From: Oceanimonas sp. GK1
GTDB lineage: Bacteria; Pseudomonadota; Gammaproteobacteria; Enterobacterales; Aeromonadaceae
Reading direction: 5' to 3'
DNA: 64,000 bases
Assembly: GCF_000243075.1 (NCBI RefSeq)
Contig: NC_016745.1
Location: 1,691,001-1,755,000 of the forward strand
Position 1 is the stretch's first letter, and each line of letters opens with the position of its first letter. The notes beneath the pieces are model-generated. The model had not been told where the DNA came from. It ran no database searches and saw only the letters and a program-made list of their open reading frames with translations. Below are positions 10,920 through 53,270 of the stretch, piece by piece. The position numbers and the translations under genes were made by a program.

Positions 10920-10998
10920 CGCAGTTCTCCGAGGCGCGTTGAGTGAATGACCTGCTGTCATTGAGTGGCTTCATTCTTGATGAGAACGGGGCGACGGA

Positions 10999-11110
10999 AT
11001 TGCCTGAAAACGACACCGACATATCCGTTCACCCCGCGTGGGGCCTGGCCTCAGGCCGTGCCGGCGGGGCAGGTCGGAAACAAGGGTGGCGGGCGTCGTT
11101 TTCAGGCAAT
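10999..11110. promoter_or_regulatory. Inverted 16-bp repeat in the gbcB-gbcA divergent promoter region (candidate GbdR sites)
   Basis: ATTGCCTGAAAACGAC at 10999-11014 is the exact reverse complement of GTCGTTTTCAGGCAAT at 11095-11110. Each copy lies about 80-115 bp upstream of the gene it faces: gbcB starts at 10919 and gbcA at 11210. The core GTCGTTTTCAG also occurs upstream of the dgc operon (19632). Assignment to the AraC-type regulator GbdR is inferred from the shared target set. Confidence 0.7.
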
Positions 11111-11209
11111 CCGCCCTTCATAACCTTGGTGACAATAAGGACAACCGTGACCCGGCGTTGTTGCCGGTGGCACTTCAGGTATTCATCAACTGACAAGGAA
11201 GCAAGACAG

Positions 11210-12478
11210 ATGGAGCAGACCAACACCACCCTTATCGGCACCAGCCTGGCAGAGACCGTTCAACTGCTGCGTGAGCGCCGGCCCGGCTATTCCCTGCCCC
11301 AGGCCTGCTACAACAGCCCCGAGGTCTTTGCCGCCGACATGGAGCAAATCTTCTGCAAGGAGTGGCTGTACGTGGGGCTGACCTGTGAAATTCCCCAGAT
11401 CGGCAATTTCATGACCCTGGACGTGGGCAACAATCCCATTACCATAGTGCGTAACAAGCATGGTATTCAGGCCTTCCACAACGTCTGTCGCCATCGTGGT
11501 TCACGTATCTGCATTCCGAAAAAAGGCAAGGTCGCCAAAATGGTCTGCCCCTATCACCAGTGGACCTACGAGCTGGACGGTGACCTCATTTATGCGGGCA
11601 ACGAGATGGGTGAGAGCTTTAACAAGGCCGACTTCCCGCTGAAGCAGGTGCATACCAAGACCGCCGGCGGTTACATCTTCATCAGCCTGGCGGACAACCC
11701 GCCCGAGATTGACGACTTCCTCGCCGAGCTGGCCCGTTACCTGGAGCCCTACGATCTGGAAAACGCCAAGGTGGCGGTGCAGTCCGAGATCCTGGAAGAC
11801 GCCAACTGGAAGCTGGTGATCGAAAACAACCGCGAGTGCTACCACTGCGCCGGCTCCCATCCGGAGCTGCTCAATACCCTGCTGGAGTGGGACGACACCA
11901 ACGATCCCCGTGCCACCGATGCCTTCAAGGCCCATGTGGCGCGCAAGGCGGCGGAGTGGGATGCGGAAGGCATTCCCCATGAGCATGTGTCGTTCGGCCT
12001 GCGCAACCGCATGGTGCGCATGCCCCTGGCCGAAGGCAAGGTGGCCATGACCATCGACGGCAGCCCCGGTTGCCAGAAAACCCTGGGCCGGGTACAGAAC
12101 CGGGATCTGGGCTCCCTGCGTATTCTGCACCTGCCCAACTCCTGGAACCACGGCCAGGGCGACCACCTGATCACCTTCCAGGTGATTCCGGTCGGCCCCC
12201 AGCAGACCAAGGTGATCACCAAGTGGGTGGTGCACAAGGACGCGGTGGAAGGCGTGGATTACGACGTGGAAAAACTGCGCCGGGTGTGGGACGCCACCAA
12301 TGCCCAGGACCGGGCCCTGGCCGAGGAAAACCAGCGCGGCATCAACTCCATGGCCTACGAGCCGGGCCCCTATTCACCCACCTACGAGTTCGGGGTGGTG
12401 AATTTCGTCAACTGGTACGCCGACACCTTTGTGGCCAATGCCGAGGGGCAGACCCTGTCGGTGAAACTGCCGGAATAA
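11210..12478 (+). CDS. gbcA: Glycine betaine demethylase, Rieske oxygenase component
   Basis: 422-residue cytoplasmic oxygenase that removes one methyl group of glycine betaine as formaldehyde, giving dimethylglycine. The Rieske 2Fe-2S site is CRHRG (Cys93, His95) with CPYHQW. The mononuclear iron site shows NNRECYHCAGSH (E-x2-H-x4-H pattern). Length and sequence match P. aeruginosa GbcA. Start ATG 11210 follows AAGGAA. It works with GbcB, encoded divergently, and is probably induced through GbdR. A weak hairpin with a T-run lies just downstream, separating it from the TRAP genes. Confidence 0.94.
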   Translation: MEQTNTTLIGTSLAETVQLLRERRPGYSLPQACYNSPEVFAADMEQIFCKEWLYVGLTCEIPQIGNFMTLDVGNNPITIVRNKHGIQAFHNVCRHRGSRICIPKKGKVAKMVCPYHQWTYELDGDLIYAGNEMGESFNKADFPLKQVHTKTAGGYIFISLADNPPEIDDFLAELARYLEPYDLENAKVAVQSEILEDANWKLVIENNRECYHCAGSHPELLNTLLEWDDTNDPRATDAFKAHVARKAAEWDAEGIPHEHVSFGLRNRMVRMPLAEGKVAMTIDGSPGCQKTLGRVQNRDLGSLRILHLPNSWNHGQGDHLITFQVIPVGPQQTKVITKWVVHKDAVEGVDYDVEKLRRVWDATNAQDRALAEENQRGINSMAYEPGPYSPTYEFGVVNFVNWYADTFVANAEGQTLSVKLPE

Positions 12479-31821: not shown

Positions 31822-31942
31822 AAGTGGGTATTTATGTGAACACTATCCTCATCATACTTTTGGTTGAGCAATGAACCATGGCCCGGCATGCTCATCATCA
31901 CCGATCAGACAAAGCCAGCATTGGCAACATGGGGAAATCGAC

Positions 31943-32710
31943 ATGACCATGCCCACCCTCGGCATTTTAGGCGTAGGCCACCTGGCCACTTACACCGTCA
32001 CCGGACTGCGCAACGGCGGAGATCAACGGCGTATTATCCTGAGCCCGCGCAATGCCGAGGCGGCGAGCCGGCTGGCCGGGCAGTGCCGGTGCGACATTGC
32101 CGGCTCCAACCAGGCCGTGGTGGAGGGCAGCGACATCATTCTGCTGGCGGTACGGCCGCAGAGCCTGAGCACGCTGTTGCGAGGGCTGACCTTTAAACCC
32201 GGCCAGCTGGTGATCTCGGCCATGGCAGGCGTGTCGCTGCAGCAGTTGCGGCAATACTCAGGGTTGCAGGCCACCACCCTGGTGCGTGCCCTGCCGCCGG
32301 CCAGTGTGGAAGTGGGCGCCGGACCGGTGCCGCTGTTTCCGGCCAACGCCGCCGCCGAAACCCTGTTTGGCACCATGGGCAAGGTGATTGTGCTGGAGTC
32401 GGAGGCCCTGTTTAACGTGGCCCTGGCCCACGGTTGCCTGCATGGCTGGAGCTATTTTCTGGTGCAGCAGCTCATTGACTGGAGCATGGACCAGGGCATG
32501 AGCAAAGAGGCCGCCCGGCAGATGGTGGTGCACTCCATCAGCAGCGCCATGGCGCTTGCCGAGTCCCGCCCCGATCTGGACTATGGCGACATTGGCAAGG
32601 CCATTGCGACCCCCGGCACCTTTACCCTGAAAGGCCTGGAGCACATTAAAGCGGGCAATGGTTTGCAGGCCTGGAGTGACGCCATGGATGCGGTGAGCAA
32701 AGAGAAGTAA
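31943..32710 (+). CDS. Pyrroline-5-carboxylate reductase family protein (ProC-like)
   Basis: 255 residues: an N-terminal NAD(P) fold starting LGILGVGHLATYTVTGL (GxGxxA variant), SDIILLAVRPQ, SAMAGVSLQQL, and a ProC-like C-terminal dimerisation helix bundle (ATPGTFTLKGLEHIK). True ProC has a GxMGxA motif and a GGxT site; here they read GVGHLA and ATPGTF, so it is a relative and may not be the proline enzyme. ATG 31943 follows GGGGAAA. It stands alone, divergent from the siderophore operon, with no clear terminator. Confidence 0.78.
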   Translation: MTMPTLGILGVGHLATYTVTGLRNGGDQRRIILSPRNAEAASRLAGQCRCDIAGSNQAVVEGSDIILLAVRPQSLSTLLRGLTFKPGQLVISAMAGVSLQQLRQYSGLQATTLVRALPPASVEVGAGPVPLFPANAAAETLFGTMGKVIVLESEALFNVALAHGCLHGWSYFLVQQLIDWSMDQGMSKEAARQMVVHSISSAMALAESRPDLDYGDIGKAIATPGTFTLKGLEHIKAGNGLQAWSDAMDAVSKEK

Positions 32711-44295: not shown

Positions 44296-44458
44296 ATGGC
44301 GGCCGAAGGTGGCTGGCCTTGCACGTTGTGTAATATTTACGGTGAGGATGCGCGCGATCACAGGGCGATTTGATATCGCTGGAGGCGCGCAAAAACAATG
44401 ATAGAGTGCGCTCGGAAACGGACAGGAGCCGTTTGTCCCAACACCGTCAGGAGCGACC

Positions 44459-45394
44459 ATGAAGATCAAGCCACTGCCGCCCATGAACAGCCTTATCGTG
44501 TTCGAGGCGGCGGCCCGTCACCTCAGTTTTACTCTGGCTGCCAACGAACTTAGCGTGACCCAGGGCGCCATCAGCCGGCAAATTCGCCAGCTGGAGGAAT
44601 ACCTGGGCAAGGATCTGTTTGTGCGGGCCAACCGCAACATCTCCCTGACCCCCACCGGCATGCAGTATTACCAGACCATTTACCGTGCCCTGCTGGACGT
44701 GGCCCAGGCCACTGGCGAGATCAAAAAGTGGCAGGGAGAGCAGCAAATTACCGTGGCCACCACCAATGCCATGGCGGCACTGTGGCTGCTGCCCAAGGTG
44801 GCGGAATTTCAGCAACAGCATGAAGAGGTGGATCTGCGCATTCTCGCCTCCGATCAGGTCACGGACTTTCGCCGGCTGGATTGCGACATTGCGCTGTTTT
44901 ACTGCCGGCTGCCGCCGGCGGAGATGAAGGTGACCAGGCTGTTCCCTGAAGAGGTGTTTCCGGTGTGCAGCCCCGCTTACCTGGAGCGCACCAAGGAGTG
45001 GGGCACGCCGGAAGAGCTGTTTGGCAGAACATTGCTGTATCTTGATGAATCCCAGCGCGACTGGGTGAGCTGGCCGGAGTGGTTTGAGCAGGTCGGCTGG
45101 CCCAATATCACGCCCCGCAACCGGGTGAACATCAACAATTACCCCATGTTGTTGCAGGCCGCCATTAACGGCCAGGGCATTGCCCTGGCCTGGGGATCCC
45201 TGGTGGATGAATACCTGGAAAGCGGCGCCCTGGTGCGGCCGGTGGATACGGTGCTGCGCACTCCGGCCAGCTTTTGCATGCTCGAACCCCTGAACCGGGG
45301 TGTGGTGCCCAACAGCGTTAAACTGTTCCGCACCTGGCTGCTGGAGCAGTTACCGGGACAGGTGGGCGAAAAAGGCCTGCATAACGGCGCCTGA
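44459..45394 (+). CDS. LysR-family transcriptional regulator (GcvA-like branch)
   Basis: 311 residues: N-terminal winged HTH (MNSLIVFEAAARHLSFTLAANELSVTQGAISRQIRQLEEYLGKDLFVR) and a LysR effector domain. AGGAG precedes ATG. It is followed by a bidirectional terminator and then, convergently, the BCCT carrier of the Rieske cluster, so it is the best candidate local regulator. Two 18-bp direct repeats between the BCCT and Rieske genes are its candidate sites. The effector would be the unknown substrate or a breakdown product. Confidence 0.88.
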   Translation: MKIKPLPPMNSLIVFEAAARHLSFTLAANELSVTQGAISRQIRQLEEYLGKDLFVRANRNISLTPTGMQYYQTIYRALLDVAQATGEIKKWQGEQQITVATTNAMAALWLLPKVAEFQQQHEEVDLRILASDQVTDFRRLDCDIALFYCRLPPAEMKVTRLFPEEVFPVCSPAYLERTKEWGTPEELFGRTLLYLDESQRDWVSWPEWFEQVGWPNITPRNRVNINNYPMLLQAAINGQGIALAWGSLVDEYLESGALVRPVDTVLRTPASFCMLEPLNRGVVPNSVKLFRTWLLEQLPGQVGEKGLHNGA

Positions 45395-45432
45395 GCAGAG
45401 AAGGAAGCGTCACTCTCGCGCAGACGGAAAGC

Positions 45433-45465
45433 AAAAAAACCGGCATGTCACCATGCCGGTTTTTG
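45433..45465. terminator. Bidirectional terminator between the LysR and BCCT genes
   Basis: Stem ACCGGCATG / CATGCCGGT, loop TCAC, with A7 before and T5 after, so it can stop transcription from both sides. Confidence 0.9.
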
Positions 45466-45488
45466 TTTTTAACGCCGGTGGTGGCGGC

Positions 45489-47186
45489 TTATTTGCCTAC
45501 GACCGGGTTGTTCCAGGCCACGGCGGGGGCCGGCTCGTTGGTCAGCGGTTCAACCGGACCATCCAGCTTGGCGGCTTCCGGACGCACATGATCCGGCAGC
45601 ATGGCCCAGGGCTGGGGCTCGCGGCGAATGCTGTGGAACAGGGTCAGGCTCATCACCGCAATAAAGATAGCAATGGGGAAACCGGCAATAATGGACGCGG
45701 TCTGCATGGCCTTGAGCCCGCCGGCGTATAGCAGCACGGCGGCAATGGCGGCAATGATCACGCCCCACAACACCCGTATCATGGTGGGCGGCTCGGTGGC
45801 GCCGGCGGCATCCAGGGTGCACAGCACCAGGGTGCCGGAGTCGGCGGAGGTAATGAAGTAGGTGCCCAGCAGCACGCAGGCCAGTATGCTCAGCAGCTTG
45901 CCCAGGGTGCCGGTGTCCAGGTTGTCAAACAGGGTGAACAGGGCCTTGGTGGTGTCCTGCTTGGTGGCCGCCAGAATGGGGCCGCCGGCAAAATCGGCCT
46001 GGGGCGCCTGCCCGGATTCGGCCAGTACCACCGCCTGCTGCTCGTACGCCACGCGCACATCCTGCTCCACCTTCAAGGCCGAGCCGCCGAACACCGACAT
46101 CCACAGAAAGGTGATCAGGGTGGGCACGATCAGGGCGCCGCCAATCAGCTCGCGAATGGTGCGGCCCTTGGAGATGCGCGCCACAAACATGCCGACAAAG
46201 GGCGCCCAGGTCATCCACCAGGGCCAGTAGTAGGCGGTCCACCAGTTCTGCCAACCGGAATCATTCTGGGCGTCGCTCCACAGGCTCATGCCGACGATGT
46301 TCTGCACATAGCTGCCGCTGCTTTCCAGCAGGGTGTTGAGAATGTAGCGGGTGGGGCCAACGTAGAGCACGATCAGCACCAGTACCAGCGACAGCAGCAT
46401 GTTCCATTCCGACAGCCGGCGAATGCCCCGGCCCACCCCCGACAGCACCGAGGCCACGGCGCAGGTGCACAGCACTACTATGATCAGCAACTGAACCCCC
46501 AGGCCGATATCGACACCGAACACCAGGTTCAGGCCGGTATTGATCTGAATGACCCCCATGCCCAGCGTCTGGGAAATGCCAAAGGCGGTAATGGCTACGG
46601 TGAGAATGTCCACCGCATGACCGATGGGGCCATAGATGCGATCACCGATCAGCGGATACAGGATGGATCTCAGGGTAAAGGGCAGATCCTTGCGGTAGGC
46701 AAAATAGGCCAGCGCCAGGGCCACGATGATAAACACCGACCAGGGGTGCAGGCCCCAGTGGAAGAAGGCTAGCTGCATGGCACTGCCGGCCGCTTCCTGG
46801 GTCAGCCCGGTGCTGAACGGATTGTCGGCGTAGTGCCACATGGGCTCGGCCACCGACCAGAAAATAAGGCCGATGCCCATGCCACCCGAAAACAGCATGG
46901 CCACCCAAGACAGGTAGCTGAATTCGGGCTTTTCATTGTCTTTGCCCAGACGGATGTGGCCGTAGCGGCTGACCATCAGATAGAGCAAAAAGCCGACCAC
47001 CAGCGTGACCAGCCCCAGATAAAACCACTTCATGTTTTGCAGCAAAATGCCGGAAACGGTTTCAAAGTATTGCCCGGCCTGATTGGCCAGAATGGCACAG
47101 AATAGTACAAAGCCGATGACCAGCACCTTGGAGGCGATGGTCACCGTTGGATTAAGTCCTTTCAAAATCCCGGATGTAGCACGCAT
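45489..47186 (-). CDS. BCCT-family quaternary-amine transporter of the Rieske cluster
   Basis: 565 residues, 12 predicted helices: SGGMGIGLIFWSVAEPMWHY (glycine helix), GMGVIQINTGLNLVFG, WWMTWAPFVGMFVARISKGRTIREL (Trp box) and FITSADSGTLVLCTL. It has the same architecture as the carrier at 16280 but is clearly a separate paralog, with a longer C-terminal tail (PLTNEPAPAVAWNNP). It is transcribed divergently from the Rieske oxygenase gene across 331 bp. The pairing says the oxygenase substrate is a betaine-, choline- or carnitine-like compound. Confidence 0.92.
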   Translation of the reverse strand: MRATSGILKGLNPTVTIASKVLVIGFVLFCAILANQAGQYFETVSGILLQNMKWFYLGLVTLVVGFLLYLMVSRYGHIRLGKDNEKPEFSYLSWVAMLFSGGMGIGLIFWSVAEPMWHYADNPFSTGLTQEAAGSAMQLAFFHWGLHPWSVFIIVALALAYFAYRKDLPFTLRSILYPLIGDRIYGPIGHAVDILTVAITAFGISQTLGMGVIQINTGLNLVFGVDIGLGVQLLIIVVLCTCAVASVLSGVGRGIRRLSEWNMLLSLVLVLIVLYVGPTRYILNTLLESSGSYVQNIVGMSLWSDAQNDSGWQNWWTAYYWPWWMTWAPFVGMFVARISKGRTIRELIGGALIVPTLITFLWMSVFGGSALKVEQDVRVAYEQQAVVLAESGQAPQADFAGGPILAATKQDTTKALFTLFDNLDTGTLGKLLSILACVLLGTYFITSADSGTLVLCTLDAAGATEPPTMIRVLWGVIIAAIAAVLLYAGGLKAMQTASIIAGFPIAIFIAVMSLTLFHSIRREPQPWAMLPDHVRPEAAKLDGPVEPLTNEPAPAVAWNNPVVGK

Positions 47187-47215
47187 AACTCCTCCCTCTT
47201 CCCCTTTGCGTATTA

Positions 47216-47242
47216 CGTTAATTGGTTAACGTTCTGTTAACG
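47216..47242 (-). promoter_or_regulatory. Repeated GTTAAC sequences before the BCCT gene
   Basis: CGTTAAT, GTTAACG and GTTAACG follow one another within 27 bases, 30-56 bp upstream of the BCCT start. They could be an operator overlapping its promoter. Confidence 0.4.
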
Positions 47243-47298
47243 GCGTGAGGTTAGGGATAGTGGAATACAGGCTCAAGTTATTTTTTCTCATCCATGAG

Positions 47299-47394
47299 TG
47301 ACGCCAGCTCATGCGTCGCCCCTCGTAAGCCTCGCAGGGCATGGGGTGGTTACATTTGGAGCGTATTTTTGACGGATGACGAAAGCTCATCCGT
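47299..47394. promoter_or_regulatory. Two 18-bp direct repeats between the divergent BCCT and Rieske genes
   Basis: TGACGCCAGCTCATGCGT (47299-47316) and TGACGAAAGCTCATCCGT (47377-47394) agree at 15 of 18 bases. The second is also inside a perfect inverted repeat, ACGGATGA-N7-TCATCCGT. A 78-bp separation suits two regulator dimers acting on both promoters. Confidence 0.65.
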
Positions 47395-47517
47395 ACCCGG
47401 CGAAAAAGTCGTTTGTTTGTTGCCACCTTGTTAACCAGAATCCACCCCATCGGCACAGACGAGTGCCAACGACAAGGAACCACGCAGCCAACACTGCGTC
47501 ACTGTGGAGAAAGCAAC

Positions 47518-48705
47518 ATGAGCAACGTCAGCCAAACCATTATTCCTGTACAGCAGGTAGACAGCGTCCTGAATCCGATTGTGGAAGCCAGCGGCATGCC
47601 CAATACCGCTTACACCAGCCAGGAATATTTTGCCTTTGAGCGCGACAAGGTGATCGGCAACACCTGGGCCTGCGTCGGCTTTGCGTCCGACCTGATCAAA
47701 AACGGCTACGTCATGCCGGTCAGCTTTATGAAAATGCCGCTGCTGATGATGCGCAACAAAGACGGTGAAGTGCAGGTGTTCCACAACGTCTGCAGCCACC
47801 GCGGCATGCAGCTGGTGCATGAGCCCGGCGAAGTGCAGGGCATGATCCGCTGCCCCTACCATTCCTGGACCTATGATCTGAACGGCAACCTCAAGGGCAC
47901 CCCGCACATCGGCGGCATTGCCAAGCACAAGGACGAGCGCTTCAAGTGCGAAAAGCACGGTCTCAAGCCGCTGCGCTCCGCGGTATGGATGGACATGGTG
48001 TTCGTCAACCTGTCCGGCGATGCCCCTTCCTTTGAAGAGCACATCGCTCCCTTGGAAAGCCGCTGGAACGAATTCCTGGGCAACGATGGCCTGAGCCTGC
48101 TGCGCCGGGTCAACATGGGTGGCCACCTGGAAATTGAAGTGGAAAGCAACTGGAAGCTGACCGTGGAAAACTACTGCGAAGCCTACCATCTGCCCTGGGT
48201 GCACCCGGCGCTGAACACCTATTCCAAGCTGGAAGATCACTACAACATCATGTTTGAAGACCGCTTTGCGGGGCAGGGCAGCTACAAATACGACCTGTCC
48301 GGCACCGCCGGCACTCATCTGCCCATGTTCCCGAGCTGGCCCAAAGACAAGCTGCGCCATGCGGAATACGTGGCCCTGTTCCCCAACGTGCTGCTGGGCA
48401 TTCAGGCGGATCATGCCTTCGCCATGATGATTGACCCCATTCACGCGGAAAAAACCATTGAGCGCCTGCGTTTGTTCTATGTGGGCGACGAAGCCACCCG
48501 CGATGAATACGCCGCCTGCCGAACCGCTACCCTGGAGTCCTGGCGCGTGGTGTTCGGCGAAGACATCGGTGCCGTGGAAGGCATGCAGCGTGGCCGCCAT
48601 TCCCCCGGTTTTGGCGGTGGCGTGTTCTCCCCCGAAATGGACCTGCCCACTCACTTCTTCCAGAAGTGGCTGGCCACCCAGACCAAGGCCGCGATGGAGG
48701 ACTGA
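47518..48705 (+). CDS. Rieske non-heme iron oxygenase, alpha subunit, substrate unknown
   Basis: 395 residues. The Rieske cluster is CSHRG ... CPYHSW. The catalytic iron site is NYCEAYHLPWVH (E-x2-H-x4-H). It is a distinct sequence from GbcA in this window. Related proteins include choline-monooxygenase-like and carnitine-oxygenase-like enzymes that attack an N-alkyl carbon. ATG 47518 follows GGAGA. The downstream aldehyde dehydrogenase suggests the product is an aldehyde, and the divergent BCCT carrier suggests a quaternary-amine substrate. Choline, carnitine-type compounds or a pyridinium betaine such as homarine are candidates; the sequence does not decide. Confidence 0.85.
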   Translation: MSNVSQTIIPVQQVDSVLNPIVEASGMPNTAYTSQEYFAFERDKVIGNTWACVGFASDLIKNGYVMPVSFMKMPLLMMRNKDGEVQVFHNVCSHRGMQLVHEPGEVQGMIRCPYHSWTYDLNGNLKGTPHIGGIAKHKDERFKCEKHGLKPLRSAVWMDMVFVNLSGDAPSFEEHIAPLESRWNEFLGNDGLSLLRRVNMGGHLEIEVESNWKLTVENYCEAYHLPWVHPALNTYSKLEDHYNIMFEDRFAGQGSYKYDLSGTAGTHLPMFPSWPKDKLRHAEYVALFPNVLLGIQADHAFAMMIDPIHAEKTIERLRLFYVGDEATRDEYAACRTATLESWRVVFGEDIGAVEGMQRGRHSPGFGGGVFSPEMDLPTHFFQKWLATQTKAAMED

Positions 48706-48707
48706 CC

Positions 48708-50135
48708 GTGCAACATTATCTGAACTATATCGATGGCCAGTGGCTGAACGCCGAGCGTCGGCTCACCGTGATGAACCCGGGCACCGGCGAGCCCCATGCC
48801 ACCATTGCCCAGGCCAGCATTGAAGATGCCGACCTGGCCATGGCCGCCGCCCGCCGCTGTGTGAACAGCGGCGCCCTCAGCGAGGTGCGCCCGGCCCGGC
48901 GCACCACCTGGATGCTGAAGGCCGCTGAGGCCATTCGCGCCATCGCCGACGAAGGGGCCCTGGTGGCCTGCCGGGAAAACGGCAAGAGCCTGAACGATGC
49001 CCGCGACGAGTTTATCGAGGCGGCCCGTTATTTCGAATATTACGCCGGCATGGCCGACAAGATTGAGGGCATTTCGGTGCCGCTCGGCAAGGACTACGTT
49101 GACTTCACCCAGTATGTGCCCTTTGGTGTGTCGGTGCAGATTGTGCCCTGGAACTTTCCGGTGTCCATCTGCGCCCGCTCCCTGGCCCCGGCGCTGGCCG
49201 CCGGCAATGCGGTGGTGATCAAGTCGCCGGAGATCTCGCCCCTGGCCATGACCCTGCTGGTCAAGGCGGTGGAGCAGGCCGGTTTCCCCCAGGGCGCGAT
49301 TAACCTGCTGTGCGGCAAGGGCTCGGAGGTGGGCAGCCACCTGGTCAAACACCCCGACGCCAACCAGATCGTGTTCACCGGCTCGGTGCCCACCGGCCAG
49401 CGCATCCTGAAGGATGCCGCCGAGCGCGCCACCCCCTCGGTGATGGAGCTGGGCGGCAAGTCCGCCGCCATCGCCCTGGCGGACGCGGATCTCGACACCC
49501 TGCTGGCCAGTGTGAAAGTCGGCATTTTCTTCAACGCCGGCCAGGTGTGCTCGGCCATGTCCCGCCTGCTGGTGCAGCGTAGCCGCTACGACGAGGTCAA
49601 GGCCGCCGTGGTGGCCCTGGCCGAAAGCCTGAGCATGGGCCAGGGCGAGAGCAATCCGGATCTCACCCCTGTGGTGTCCGAAGGGCAGCAGCGGCAGGTG
49701 CTGGCGATGATCGAGCAGGCCCGGGCCGAGGGCGCGACCGTGCTCACCGGCGGCGTGGCCCCGGACTTGTCCGGCTACTTTGTGGCGCCCACCGTGATTG
49801 AGGCGACCCCGGACATGCGCATTGCTCAAGAAGAAGTGTTTGGCCCCGTGCTGGTGATCATGCCCTTCGACGATGAAGACGAGGCGGTGGCCCTGGCCAA
49901 CGGCACCGACTTCGGCCTGGTGGCCGGGGTGTTCGGTGAAGGCCTGAGTCAGACTCTGCGGGTGGCCAACCGGCTGCGCGGCGGTCAGGTGTTCATCAAC
50001 GAATGGTTCGCCGGCGGCATTGAAACCCCCTTCGGCGGGGTGGGGCTGTCGGGCTTTGGCCGCGAGAAAGGACAGGAAGCCATCTACAGCTATGTCCAGA
50101 CCCGCAATATCGGCATTCGCCTGAGCCGGGGCTGA
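48708..50135 (+). CDS. NAD(P)-dependent aldehyde dehydrogenase of the Rieske cluster
   Basis: 475 residues. Catalytic Cys in NAGQVCSAMSRLLV, Glu in SVMELGGKSAAI, cofactor stretch VQIVPWNFP and FTGSVPTGQRI, and EEVFGPVL near the end. The overall pattern is betaine-aldehyde/aminoaldehyde dehydrogenase-like. GTG 48708 is two bases after the oxygenase stop and follows GGAGG, so the pair is translationally coupled. It should oxidise the aldehyde released by the oxygenase or oxidase to an acid. Confidence 0.88.
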   Translation: MQHYLNYIDGQWLNAERRLTVMNPGTGEPHATIAQASIEDADLAMAAARRCVNSGALSEVRPARRTTWMLKAAEAIRAIADEGALVACRENGKSLNDARDEFIEAARYFEYYAGMADKIEGISVPLGKDYVDFTQYVPFGVSVQIVPWNFPVSICARSLAPALAAGNAVVIKSPEISPLAMTLLVKAVEQAGFPQGAINLLCGKGSEVGSHLVKHPDANQIVFTGSVPTGQRILKDAAERATPSVMELGGKSAAIALADADLDTLLASVKVGIFFNAGQVCSAMSRLLVQRSRYDEVKAAVVALAESLSMGQGESNPDLTPVVSEGQQRQVLAMIEQARAEGATVLTGGVAPDLSGYFVAPTVIEATPDMRIAQEEVFGPVLVIMPFDDEDEAVALANGTDFGLVAGVFGEGLSQTLRVANRLRGGQVFINEWFAGGIETPFGGVGLSGFGREKGQEAIYSYVQTRNIGIRLSRG

Positions 50136-50207
50136 CAGCGAGTCAACAACGGGCCGGCGTTGAACCGGCCCGCAGCAAGGCAGTAACAGGGTAGTGGGGA
50201 GAGGAAG

Positions 50208-51596
50208 ATGAAAAAGTGGTTATGCATCATCTGCGGACTGATTTATGACGAAGCCAAGGGCTGGCCGGCGGACGACATTGCCCCGGGCACCCGTTGGGAA
50301 GACGTACCGGACGACTGGCTGTGCCCCGATTGCCTGGTGGGCAAGGCGGATTTCGAAATGATCGAAATCACCAACGACGAGCCCGCTCCGGTGGCGGCGG
50401 TGGCCGAGGTGGCTACCCCGGCGGCCGAGCCCGCGCTTGAGCCGGTGGTGATCATCGGCACCGGCCACGGTGGCTACCAGCTGGCGGTGGCGCTGCGGGC
50501 CCGTTCACCCGAGCTGCCCATTACCCTGTTTACCGCCGACGACGGCGCCCTTTACAGCAAGCCGGCGCTGTCCAACGCCCTGGCCCTGGGTAAGGACGGC
50601 GACGGCCTGGTGAGCGAGACCGCCCTGTCCTGGGAGCAGCGCCTGGGCGTGCGGGTTTACCCCCATACCCGGGTTGAGCGCATCGACCGGGAAAACAAGC
50701 GGCTGCACACCAGCATTGGCGAATATCCCTATGGCCGCCTGGTGCTGGCCACCGGCGCCTCGCCCATTCAAATTCCGGTGGCCGGCATCCCGGTGGCCGG
50801 CGAGCAAAGCGCCATGGTAAGCGTGAACGATTTGCTGGACTACCGCCGCTTTCGCGAACGGCTGGCCGGCAAACAGCACGTCACCATTCTGGGAGATGGC
50901 CTCATCGGCTGTGAGTTCGCCAACGATCTGGCGGCCCAGGGTATTGGCGTGACCGTGGTGGGGCTGGGCCAGTGGCCGATGGAGCGGCTTATTCCGCAAC
51001 CGCTGGGTGAAGCCCTGCAACGGGCCCTGAGCGGCCTGGGCGTGGAGTGGGCGCTGCAAGACAGCATCAGCCGCATCGACGCCGCCGACGAGGGCTATTG
51101 CCTGCAATTGCAGAGTGGCCGTGAGCTGGCCACCGATCTGGTGCTGAGCGCCGTGGGGCTTAGGCCCAACACCGGCCTGGCCCAGGCCGCGGGGCTGGCC
51201 ACCGGGCGCGGCATCAGTGTTGACCTGGCCCATGCCACCAGTGACCCCGCCATTTTCGCCCTGGGCGACTGTGCGGAAGTCGCCGGCCAGTGGGCCCCTT
51301 ATATTGCCCCCATCAACCAGGCTATTCCCGCCCTGGTGGAGACCCTGCTGGGCCGGCCCACCGAGGCGACCCTCAAGGCTTCGCCGGTGCTGGTGAAAAC
51401 CCCGGTGCTGCCGCTGTCGGTGCAACCGGCCATGGGCCCCGGGGAATGGCGGGTGGACGCCCACGGCGAAGAGCTGGCGGCGGGTTTTTACGGCGCCGAT
51501 GGCAGCCTGAGCGGTTTTGCACTACTGGGCCGCGAGCTGCAGAGTCAGCGCAGCCAGTGGCTGGAACAACTTAATCCGGCCCGGAACGTGGCCTGA
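50208..51596 (+). CDS. Rubredoxin fused to an NAD(P)H:rubredoxin reductase
   Basis: 462 residues. The first 52 form a rubredoxin: WLCIICGLIYDEAKGWP and DWLCPDCLVGK give the two CxxC iron ligands. An Ala/Pro/Glu-rich linker (about residues 55-80) leads to a FAD/NAD-dependent reductase (VVIIGTGHGGYQLAVALRARSP; LVLATGASP; VTILGDGLIGCEFANDL; FALGDCAEVAG). This is the AlkT/RubB type in one chain. It is the only electron-transfer gene in the cluster, so it presumably feeds the Rieske oxygenase. AGAGGAAG precedes ATG 50208. Confidence 0.9.
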   Translation: MKKWLCIICGLIYDEAKGWPADDIAPGTRWEDVPDDWLCPDCLVGKADFEMIEITNDEPAPVAAVAEVATPAAEPALEPVVIIGTGHGGYQLAVALRARSPELPITLFTADDGALYSKPALSNALALGKDGDGLVSETALSWEQRLGVRVYPHTRVERIDRENKRLHTSIGEYPYGRLVLATGASPIQIPVAGIPVAGEQSAMVSVNDLLDYRRFRERLAGKQHVTILGDGLIGCEFANDLAAQGIGVTVVGLGQWPMERLIPQPLGEALQRALSGLGVEWALQDSISRIDAADEGYCLQLQSGRELATDLVLSAVGLRPNTGLAQAAGLATGRGISVDLAHATSDPAIFALGDCAEVAGQWAPYIAPINQAIPALVETLLGRPTEATLKASPVLVKTPVLPLSVQPAMGPGEWRVDAHGEELAAGFYGADGSLSGFALLGRELQSQRSQWLEQLNPARNVA

Positions 51597-51606
51597 GGAC
51601 AGACCC

Positions 51607-52923
51607 ATGATTGCCTTACCGAACGACGACACCAGCTGCGGCTGGTACCAGGCGCTGCCCCAGGCAGCGCCGGCCACCCGGCTCAAGGGCCGGCAGCAGG
51701 CCGACTACGCGGTGCTGGGGGCGGGCTTTGCCGGCCTGGCCGCCGCCCGCCGGCTGGCCGAGCTCAAGCCCGAGGCGCGCATTGTGCTGGTGGATGCCCA
51801 ACGGGTGGCGGAAGGCGCCTCCGGGCGCAACTCCGGCTTTGTCATCGACCTGCCCCACAAGTTCGCCCTGGAACACCCGGATCCGGTGCACAAGCAGAAA
51901 CTGCTGGGCCTGAACCGGGCCGCCATCGCCCAGTTGCAGGGGCTGGTGGAGCGCCACGGCATTGATTGCCAGTGGTCCGCCGTGGGCAAGTACCAGGGGG
52001 CGGTGGGGGAGCGCGGCATCGCCTTTCTCGAGCACTTCGAGCACCTGATGAAGGACTTGGGCGAGCCCTACCACTGGGTGGACAAGGCCGAGCTGGGCAA
52101 GGTACTGGGTACCGGCTTTTACAGCCAGGCCATTTTCACCCCCGGTTGCTACCTGATGCAGCCGGCGGCCCTGGTGCGGGGCATGGCCGAGCACCTGCCG
52201 GAGAACGTGGAGTTGCTGGAGCAGTCGCCCATTCGTTCGCTGCGCCGCGAAGGCGGCCAGTGGCGGTTGCAGGGGGACGACGGCGAGATCCAGGCGCCAA
52301 CCCTGTTGCTGGGGGCCAGCATCTTTACCCGGGAGTTTGGTTACCTGAAAAACCGGCTGCTGCCGGTGATGACCTTCGCCAGCTGGACCCGACCGCTGAC
52401 CGACGACGAGCTGGCCCGCTACGGCGGCGAGCTGAACTGGGGCCTGACCCCGGCGGATCATGCCGGCACCACGCTGCGCATGACCGCCGACCGGCGCATT
52501 CTTATTCGCAACAGCTACAAGCACGTGCCCAAGTACGGTGCCAGTGTGAGTGATGGCATGCGCCGGAAAATTCGCGCCGATCATCGCCAGGCGTTTCTGG
52601 ACCGTTACCCCGAATTGGCCGAAGTGCCCTTTACCCATACCTGGGGCGGCGTTTACGCCATCTCCCGCAACTTCACCAACTTCTTTGGTGAGCTGGAAGA
52701 CGGCGTGTTTGCCAGCGCCTGTGACAACGGCGTGGGCGCGGCCTGGGGCACCATTTCCGGTACCCTGATGGCGGACATGGCGGTGGGCGCCGATTCCCAG
52801 GCGCTGCGGGACATTCGCCAGGTGACCGGCATGCCCAGCCTGAACCCGCCCGAGCCCTTGCTGGGGCTGGGAGTGAAAAGCCGGATTCGCCTCGCCAGGT
52901 GGCAGAGCAGGAGTGAACTGTGA
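51607..52923 (+). CDS. FAD-dependent amine/amino-acid oxidoreductase (DAO family)
   Basis: 438 residues: dinucleotide fold ADYAVLGAGFAGLAAARRLAE, GASGRNSGFVIDLPH (the GASGRNGG-type motif of gamma-glutamylputrescine oxidase and DadA relatives), and a C-terminal FAD segment DGVFASACDNGVGAAWGTISG. It should oxidise a secondary or primary amine, for instance an N-methyl amino acid left after ring opening or demethylation, releasing aldehyde or imine. It begins 10 bases after the rubredoxin reductase and overlaps the cupin gene by 4 bases. Confidence 0.85.
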   Translation: MIALPNDDTSCGWYQALPQAAPATRLKGRQQADYAVLGAGFAGLAAARRLAELKPEARIVLVDAQRVAEGASGRNSGFVIDLPHKFALEHPDPVHKQKLLGLNRAAIAQLQGLVERHGIDCQWSAVGKYQGAVGERGIAFLEHFEHLMKDLGEPYHWVDKAELGKVLGTGFYSQAIFTPGCYLMQPAALVRGMAEHLPENVELLEQSPIRSLRREGGQWRLQGDDGEIQAPTLLLGASIFTREFGYLKNRLLPVMTFASWTRPLTDDELARYGGELNWGLTPADHAGTTLRMTADRRILIRNSYKHVPKYGASVSDGMRRKIRADHRQAFLDRYPELAEVPFTHTWGGVYAISRNFTNFFGELEDGVFASACDNGVGAAWGTISGTLMADMAVGADSQALRDIRQVTGMPSLNPPEPLLGLGVKSRIRLARWQSRSEL

Positions 52924-53270
52924 AAGAAGTCAAACTCGTCGACAGCAAGGCTCTGGACTTTACCGTGCGGGGCGACTCGCCCGGCATGGCTTATGTCGCC
53001 CGGGCCCTGAGCCCGGACGTGTCGCCGAACATGGGCGTGGGCTTTGCCCGCTGGGAAGGGGCCGAAGTGGCCTGGACCGTACTTTACGACGAAGTGGTGT
53101 TCGTGATTGAAGGCTGCTTTGAGCTGACCGCCAATGGCAAAACGCACCAGGTTCGCCCCGGGCAGATGCTGTGGATCCCCGAAGGCACCGAGCTGGTGTA
53201 CGGCGGCCACGCGCTGTTCGGTTATGTGGTTCACCCCGGCAACTGGAAGGAGCTGCACGGCCTGGCCTGA
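52920..53270 (+). CDS. Cupin-domain protein (EutQ-like)
   Basis: 116 residues with GTG 52920 overlapping the previous stop (GTGA). One cupin barrel is visible: YDEVVFVIEGCFELTANGKTHQVRPGQMLWIPEGTEL. The first cupin motif lacks the usual HxH metal pair, so metal binding is doubtful, as in many EutQ/DUF861 members. It is the last gene of the Rieske operon and is followed by a terminator. It could be an enzyme, ligand sensor or isomerase in the pathway. Confidence 0.85.
   Translation: MKEVKLVDSKALDFTVRGDSPGMAYVARALSPDVSPNMGVGFARWEGAEVAWTVLYDEVVFVIEGCFELTANGKTHQVRPGQMLWIPEGTELVYGGHALFGYVVHPGNWKELHGLA

Follow-up and report, generated by a model that had tools for sequence, protein, structure and literature searches.

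A unit of seven genes is described here in the genome of Oceanimonas sp. GK1, within a stretch of 64,000 nucleotides (assembly GCF_000243075.1, contig NC_016745.1, positions 1,691,001 to 1,755,000; hereafter the window). It codes for a LysR-type regulator, a BCCT carrier, a Rieske non-haem iron oxygenase, an aldehyde dehydrogenase (ALDH), a rubredoxin fused to an NADH:rubredoxin reductase, a DAO-family FAD amine oxidase and a small EutQ-like cupin. The unit appears to work like the quaternary-amine Rieske modules and belongs to none of the characterised members with which it was compared, and its partner is apparently a rubredoxin. Regarding its substrate, we lean, with a little better than even confidence, towards a proline-type betaine, ring opening and N-demethylation being taken together, and within this class most likely towards proline betaine (stachydrine) or a hydroxylated relative. 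The more precise proposal, in which the unit would be catabolic and would open the ring of the betaine by a route different from the demethylation by Stc2 and HpbA, is tentative and is held with clearly less than even confidence.

Betaines are large organic-nitrogen pools in sea water and plant exudates, and each of them needs its own opening enzyme. Carriers of the unit are Proteobacteria living in the sea, in soil or with hosts; no known substrate was found for it, and part of its loci had been likened to carnitine genes. A defined substrate would make its genes a marker of the turnover of that compound and, if the ring opening is true, the unit would represent a new betaine pathway, separate from that of Stc2 and HpbA.

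Profile scans of the window proteins found the seven genes where an earlier note on this DNA had placed them, and its view of a self-contained unit is borne out by comparison with other genomes. A pattern-based scan of 84,980 species genomes, of a kind that distant members may escape, confirmed 271 relatives, the best 80 of which were kept as cluster loci. The order Rieske-ALDH-rubredoxin fusion-DAO-cupin, on a single strand, is kept in 73 of these 80, including one locus (L078) in which other genes are inserted before the fusion. Among the seven loci that break the order, three (L021, L073 and L079) reach the contig end, L030 is devoid of both the fusion and the cupin, L058 of the fusion, and L053 and L068 of the cupin; no fusion was seen either in L155, which stands outside the 80-locus set. 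A LysR gene and a BCCT gene, each with at least 50% identity, are present in 74/80 and 64/80 of the loci, respectively. In the window, the BCCT gene lies on the opposite strand to the rest of the unit and diverges from the oxygenase gene, a gap of 2 bases separates the oxygenase stop from the GTG start of the ALDH gene, and the GTG start of the cupin gene overlaps the DAO stop. The carrier itself scores above the cut-off of TIGR00842 (478 bits) and under that of the glycine-betaine equivalog (561.6 bits for a cut-off of 650).

The intergenic region between the BCCT and oxygenase genes contains a strongly conserved aligned block with the palindrome ATGA-N7-TCAT, whose strict pattern has one match in the 64 kb window, where 0.00 would be expected. 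In its loose form, the motif occurs at most 350 nt upstream of the oxygenase gene in 73/80 loci, compared to a background of 0.033 per 350 nt, and it is probably the operator-like site of the LysR regulator. Taken together, the gene order and the shared palindrome show that the seven genes form a conserved unit, beyond chance. No description of this gene order was found in the excerpts of the literature that were searched.

The closest named relative comes from Oceanimonas (97%), and the hosts among the best 80 loci are found in Oceanisphaera, Zobellella, Vibrio, Photobacterium, Pseudoalteromonas, Marinobacter, Acinetobacter, Psychrobacter, Halomonas, Colwellia, Rahnella, Massilia and Pseudomonas; copies on plasmids are known from Oceanisphaera, Pseudomonas and Cupriavidus. 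This distribution is patchy. At the order level, oxygenase matches at E <= 1e-40 were obtained in 7/295 genomes, three of them distant (29-33%); at the class level, matches at E <= 1e-80 were obtained in 13/369 genomes, the other 12 having just 44-61% identity; at the phylum level, a broader model gave matches at E <= 1e-90 in 22/398 genomes, mostly from outside the class. The own genome is included in the first two counts. Within the own genome, three matches at E <= 0.001 were recorded, including the query. Two Acinetobacter baumannii sequences of 3.7-4.0 Mb (NZ_CP077849.1 and NZ_CP064203.1), listed as plasmids although their lengths are chromosome-like, have the cluster genes for at least the oxygenase, the DAO and the cupin.

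Judging from its sequence, the oxygenase resembles the quaternary-ammonium Rieske oxygenases, yet is distinct from GbcA, CntA and Stc2. Its best solved relative is CntA, followed in profile and fold searches by Stc2, the structure models of the oxygenase and of the DAO being of moderate quality (mean pLDDT of 78 and 76, respectively) and used for fold class alone. C92, H94, C112 and H115 (C-x-H and C-x-x-H), which we take to be the ligands of the Rieske cluster, are invariant in an alignment of 35 rows (A3), as are H224, H229 and D349, two histidines and one carboxylate that, by alignment with CntA, presumably bind the mononuclear iron. With CntA, the oxygenase shares the bridging glutamate (E205 in CntA, E221 here, in 35/35 aligned) and the aromatic residue for a pi-cation contact (Tyr or Phe at the position of CntA Y203, in 35/35). 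It differs from CntA by the absence of the pair Cys206-x-x-Cys209, replaced by A/S and L in 35/35, a pair that is stated, in the published excerpts available, for some group V members only. According to the accessible part of PMC7948474, an aromatic residue at CntA position 203 marks group Va, which takes in CntA, choline monooxygenases and OxyBAC (carnitine, choline, benzalkonium), and an asparagine marks the demethylating group Vb (glycine betaine, stachydrine). This asparagine was found in the window GbcA and in both Agrobacterium relatives, and not in the oxygenases of the unit.

When 40 proteins were placed in a tree, the oxygenases of the cluster grouped in a single supported clade (96/94), separate from the CntA and from the GbcA/Stc2-type rows, and in this tree they fall in no clade with a proven substrate. 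With this and with the co-conservation of the genes, neither of the results that the earlier note had named as a refutation was obtained. With midpoint rooting, CntA branches beside them, on a very long branch that makes this placement unsafe. The statement of the earlier note that the oxygenase is not GbcA was confirmed: it reaches 122.9 bits in the GbcA model NF058607, for a cut-off of 670, and is 25% identical to the window GbcA (10943-12478), which scores 744.8 bits in the same model. With GbcA it shares being a Rieske oxygenase, probably for a quaternary amine. The further statement that the substrate is a second quaternary amine is supported as far as the type of oxygenase is concerned, a quaternary amine being the predicted substrate.

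The ALDH gene follows the oxygenase gene in 80/80 loci (the L079 copy is cut by the contig end), and the Rieske-ALDH pair is also found in Leisingera, Phaeobacter, L122 and L123, where the DAO of the unit is not adjacent. Since the ALDH is constant after the oxygenase, even without an adjacent DAO, the product of the oxygenase within this group is probably an aldehyde larger than formaldehyde. The window ALDH reaches the cut-off of none of the 25 families shown, betaine aldehyde dehydrogenase (BADH) giving 403 of 668.6 bits. As for the DAO, its predicted fold is nearest to glycine oxidase, followed by D-arginine dehydrogenase, L-proline dehydrogenase, DMGDH and sarcosine oxidase, and its best NCBIfam match is the L-pipecolate oxidase AmaA (123 bits for a cut-off of 600). 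Enzymes of the DMGDH and sarcosine-oxidase types demethylate N-methyl amino acids, and in Phaeobacter a DMGDH-type protein (DAO + FAO_M + GCV_T) stands in line in the place of the DAO. This replacement by a folate-type enzyme supports the succession of oxygenase, ALDH and amine oxidase that had been put forward earlier.

The rubredoxin-reductase fusion seems to feed electrons to the oxygenase, because it is the sole redox partner encoded in the unit. It combines rubredoxin, NADH/FAD reductase and rubredoxin-binding C-terminal domains (PF00301, PF07992 and PF18113), and both of its halves match solved proteins, the rubredoxin reductase 2v3a (267.5 bits) and the rubredoxin 2v3b_B (82 bits), with the difference that here they are one chain in an operon with a Rieske oxygenase. 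No gene of the CntB type appeared among the genes of the unit in family and Pfam scans. The reductase with which CntA works, CntB, is described in the accessible part of PMC7948474 as an FMN reductase with a [2Fe-2S] centre, and a reductase of this general type is found beside the oxygenase homologues of Ruegeria and Phaeobacter. A supply by rubredoxin would be unusual for Rieske oxygenases, and none of the papers listed by one literature search had both 'rubredoxin reductase' and 'Rieske oxygenase'; if true, it would widen the known electron supply to this enzyme class.

In the proposed pathway, the BCCT carrier would import the betaine and the LysR regulator, bound at the ATGA-N7-TCAT palindrome, would turn the operon on. 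By way of the rubredoxin-reductase fusion, electrons from NADH would reach the Rieske oxygenase, which might grip the quaternary nitrogen via a pi-cation contact, as CntA does, and hydroxylate the adjacent ring carbon, whereupon the C-N bond would be broken. As this carbon is part of a ring, the outcome would be an N,N-dimethyl amino-acid semialdehyde, no amine being released. The ALDH would then give an N,N-dimethyl amino diacid, for instance N,N-dimethylglutamate, from which the DAO oxidase could strip the N-methyl groups to yield glutamate and formaldehyde. Ring opening is preferred over a demethylation of the Stc2 type because of the group Va marker and of the ALDH that is constant within the clade.

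The genomic context suggests a proline-type betaine, although it is not conclusive. The cluster genomes tested were 41, namely the own genome and those of 40 of the 80 loci, and an HpbA-like gene, 72% identical to proteins annotated as N-methyl-L-proline N-demethylase, was found at 72% or more in 5/41, with a 53% relative in a sixth and the remaining matches at 41-44%. In three of the five, its distance from the oxygenase gene is 3.9 kb (H. nitroreducens), 5.0 kb (Pseudomonas karstica) and 10.2 kb (H. organivorans); the remaining two have it at about 9 and 16 kb from an Stc2 relative, away from the cluster, and in H. maura (L057) an HpbA-like gene is also located beside the cluster. In H. organivorans, the cluster is continued by an island with HpbA, a pyrroline-5-carboxylate-reductase-like (P5CR-like) gene, Ldh2-family, MR/MLE, DAO and DHDPS-type genes and an Stc2 relative, the best family of the MR/MLE protein being cis-3-hydroxyproline dehydratase (260 of 500 bits). 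The Leisingera Rieske-ALDH pair stands between a DHDPS-ALDH-DAO set and an MR/MLE gene of that family (317 of 500 bits), and the Ldh2-family gene of Phaeobacter has Pip2C reductase as its best solved relative (197 bits). A Pyr2C/Pip2C reductase follows the Rieske-ALDH pair in L123 (338.9 bits, cut-off 322), the L122 copy being 88% identical, and PutA and PutP lie upstream of the cluster in six Pseudomonas loci. Full clusters aside, the DAO relative that comes closest in the plasmid collection (53%) is on an alfalfa-derived Agrobacterium plasmid, in a locus that also has HpbA-like and P5CR-like genes, genes for handling formaldehyde, and an Stc2 relative (527 bits to 3vca).

These neighbours were also counted. 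Ten labelled proline-type genes, a set chosen after the neighbours had been seen, were sought within the flanks of the loci and in 60 control stretches (40 from Gammaproteobacteria and 20 others, i.e. 19 from outside the class and one gammaproteobacterial), hand-placed at arbitrary coordinates rather than by a random generator. In most gammaproteobacterial genomes they lie on a contig with a match from the BetA or GbcA search, at about 70-100 kb from that match. At least one such gene was present in 11/80 cluster loci, 3/12 divergent gammaproteobacterial loci and 1/18 loci from outside the class, compared to 1/40 and 2/20 in the two control groups. The 11 loci comprise six near-related Pseudomonas with PutA/PutP, which are probably one event, four Halomonas or P. 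karstica loci, and one generic match at 31% (L069). This count alone is weak. The case for a proline-type betaine rests on HpbA, absent from 60/60 controls, and on the H. organivorans island.

Several observations weigh against ring opening of a proline-type betaine. The broad proline-gene count is barely above the controls and no significance is claimed for it, and the link to a DddP-like neighbour, for which the proposal has no explanation, is numerically stronger. The proline ring is intact in the compounds on which HpbA and PutA act, a better fit to demethylation than to ring opening, and an Stc2 relative (53-56%) already exists in 6/41 cluster genomes, where another way of degrading this betaine would thus be redundant. 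L030, L058 and L155 have no rubredoxin fusion, no ALDH gene stands beside the oxygenase in 17/18 of the loci from outside the class and in both Ruegeria loci, and the sarcosine-oxidase-type genes of Ruegeria are nearby on the opposite strand, a GlxA gene lying in between. Finally, the cupin has no step in the proposed pathway.

An alternative for the same substrate class is a chemistry of the Stc2 type, in which proline betaine is N-demethylated to N-methylproline and formaldehyde, and the DAO then oxidises N-methylproline either to proline or to a ring imine, giving a semialdehyde that the ALDH oxidises. The HpbA-like N-methylproline demethylase and the PutA/PutP neighbours agree with it, as do the AmaA match of the DAO and the situation of H. 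nitroreducens, which has HpbA near the cluster and in which no Stc2-type oxygenase was found, only GbcA. With the stachydrine and hydroxyproline betaine pathway (Stc2, HpbA), the unit shares a proline-type context, with HpbA, P5CR-like and TetR neighbours in some loci, and the 53% DAO relative in such a locus. However, the unit has a dedicated ALDH and a rubredoxin partner, its oxygenase falls outside the Stc2/GbcA-type clade, and the Vb asparagine is replaced by Tyr or Phe in 35/35; moreover, the constant ALDH (80/80 loci, plus Leisingera, Phaeobacter, L122 and L123, where the DAO is not adjacent) would be left unexplained. Stc2-type chemistry is therefore considered unlikely, although it keeps appreciable weight.

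It is rather improbable that the unit degrades homarine, or a different aromatic pyridinium betaine, to N-methylglutamate, which would then be demethylated. Such an end point would suit the DAO or a folate-linked N-demethylase, and four Psychrobacter loci have the five genes followed by LysR, in the manner of the homarine operon homABCDER, which is said to consist of five genes plus a regulator; on the other hand, the unit also occurs in Rahnella, Massilia and Cupriavidus, and HpbA, PutA and P5CR-like neighbours would be unexpected. A participation of Mgd in homarine catabolism is mentioned, with reference to a 2026 pathway paper, in the accessible part of PMC13390433.

A DddP-like M24 gene adjoins 23/80 loci, in at least three arrangements, and 0/60 controls, which raises the possibility that the unit handles a dimethylsulfoniopropionate (DMSP)-like or beta-betaine osmolyte, with the DddP-family neighbour in the same pathway. 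The tested Oceanimonas and Oceanisphaera copies (L016 and L019) pass the DddP cut-off of 600 with 629.5 and 631.8 bits, and copies from Acinetobacter, Wohlfahrtiimonas, Halomonas and Pseudomonas (L037, L050, L060 and L074) remain below it (295-498 bits). In these sister Oceanimonas and Oceanisphaera genomes, the gene is located between an MFS gene and LysR in L016 and L017, and before LysR in L019 and L021. Nevertheless, the flanks of 57/80 loci contain no DddP-like gene, none is present in the window genome (best match 22% identity), including at window positions 44296-44458, and a sulfonium substrate would give the amine oxidase and the folate-linked N-demethylases no role, making this reading very improbable. 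A combined scheme is improbable as well: a rubredoxin-fed, intramolecular ring opening of a proline-type betaine by chemistry of the CntA type, with the adjoining DddP-family enzymes in the same pathway and DMSP cleavage by DddP being then a side branch of nitrogen-betaine breakdown. In Marinobacter sp. X15-166B (L030:7157-8501), the DddP-like gene is split across two overlapping reading frames.

Choline and carnitine, which the earlier note had listed together with proline-type and homarine-type betaines, are disfavoured, the contexts favouring the proline type. Conversion of choline via betaine aldehyde to glycine betaine, or of carnitine to malic semialdehyde and trimethylamine, would agree with an ALDH nearest to BADH and with the composition of group Va, in which the consulted excerpts of PMC7948474 place CntA and choline monooxygenases. 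However, BetA is above its cut-off in 33/41 cluster genomes, which makes a second choline route redundant, and GbcA is so in only 21/41, the remainder needing another route of glycine betaine demethylation (not searched for). With the carnitine module (CAR) of CntA and CntB from Acinetobacter and Psychrobacter, as far as its published description was available, the unit shares a LysR regulator, a BCCT carrier, a group V oxygenase and a semialdehyde dehydrogenase. The two differ in their oxygenases (23-24% identical in the structural match, without the Cys pair of CntA here), in the CntB-type [2Fe-2S] reductase there and the rubredoxin reductase here, and in the DAO and the cupin, which are extra here. 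They lie side by side in Acinetobacter silvestris (L042), where a true CntA (814 bits to 6y8j), with ALDH and reductase genes, adjoins the cluster, a finding that speaks against carnitine. In the available portion of PMC6514802, genes of four Psychrobacter strains are reported as homologous to parts of the carnitine module; two of these loci are by accession L039 and L041, and L046 is a strain of the same name in another assembly. These three loci are the present unit, different from the carnitine module, and the choline or carnitine reading is hardly credible.

Table 1. Features of the unit, in window coordinates
Feature	Position	Strand	Basis
LysR-type regulator, GcvA-like	44459..45394	+	NF008352 292 bits (cut-off 288)
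BCCT carrier	45489..47186	-	Pfam BCCT 590.9 bits
Operator-like palindrome ATGACGAAAGCTCAT (ATGA-N7-TCAT)	47376..47390	.	between BCCT and oxygenase; probable LysR site
Rieske non-haem iron oxygenase, quaternary-ammonium type, own clade	47518..48705	+	Pfam Rieske, Ring_hydroxyl_A
Aldehyde dehydrogenase (ALDH), BADH-like, GTG start	48708..50135	+	Pfam Aldedh 501 bits
Rubredoxin fused to NADH:rubredoxin reductase	50208..51596	+	Pfam Rubredoxin, Pyr_redox_2, Rbx_binding
DAO-family FAD amine oxidase, probable N-demethylase	51607..52923	+	Pfam DAO 161 bits
EutQ-like small cupin, GTG start	52920..53270	+	Pfam EutQ 57.4 bits

Elsewhere in the window, a pyrroline-5-carboxylate-reductase-like gene is located at 31871-32710 (145.7 bits, under the family cut-off of 254 bits). 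Among the more remote homologues, the 12 divergent gammaproteobacterial loci (44-61% identity) are mostly lone oxygenases, with a Pyr2C-reductase-type gene in three. The 18 loci from outside the class (L156-L173, about 43-52% identity), which are probably from roseobacters and other alphaproteobacteria, are of limited use as a guide to function: an ALDH gene is found in 1/18, a DMGDH-type gene in 3/18, an adjacent SoxB-like gene in 1/18 and a proline-type gene in 1/18. In 14/18 of them, a small conserved protein (about 79 residues) comes after the oxygenase (e.g. L168:9110-10509), for which the single copy checked, from L098, gave no Pfam match. By eye, this small protein occupies, in several of these loci, a similar place beside apparent acetolactate synthase genes. 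A DUF3726 protein was noticed next to a partner some 565 residues long, for which a suspected identity as aconitase X found no Pfam match, in Pseudomonas MPC6 (L011:532-2999) and Phaeobacter (L098:16545-18883), with a second BCCT gene and a dipeptidase gene nearby.

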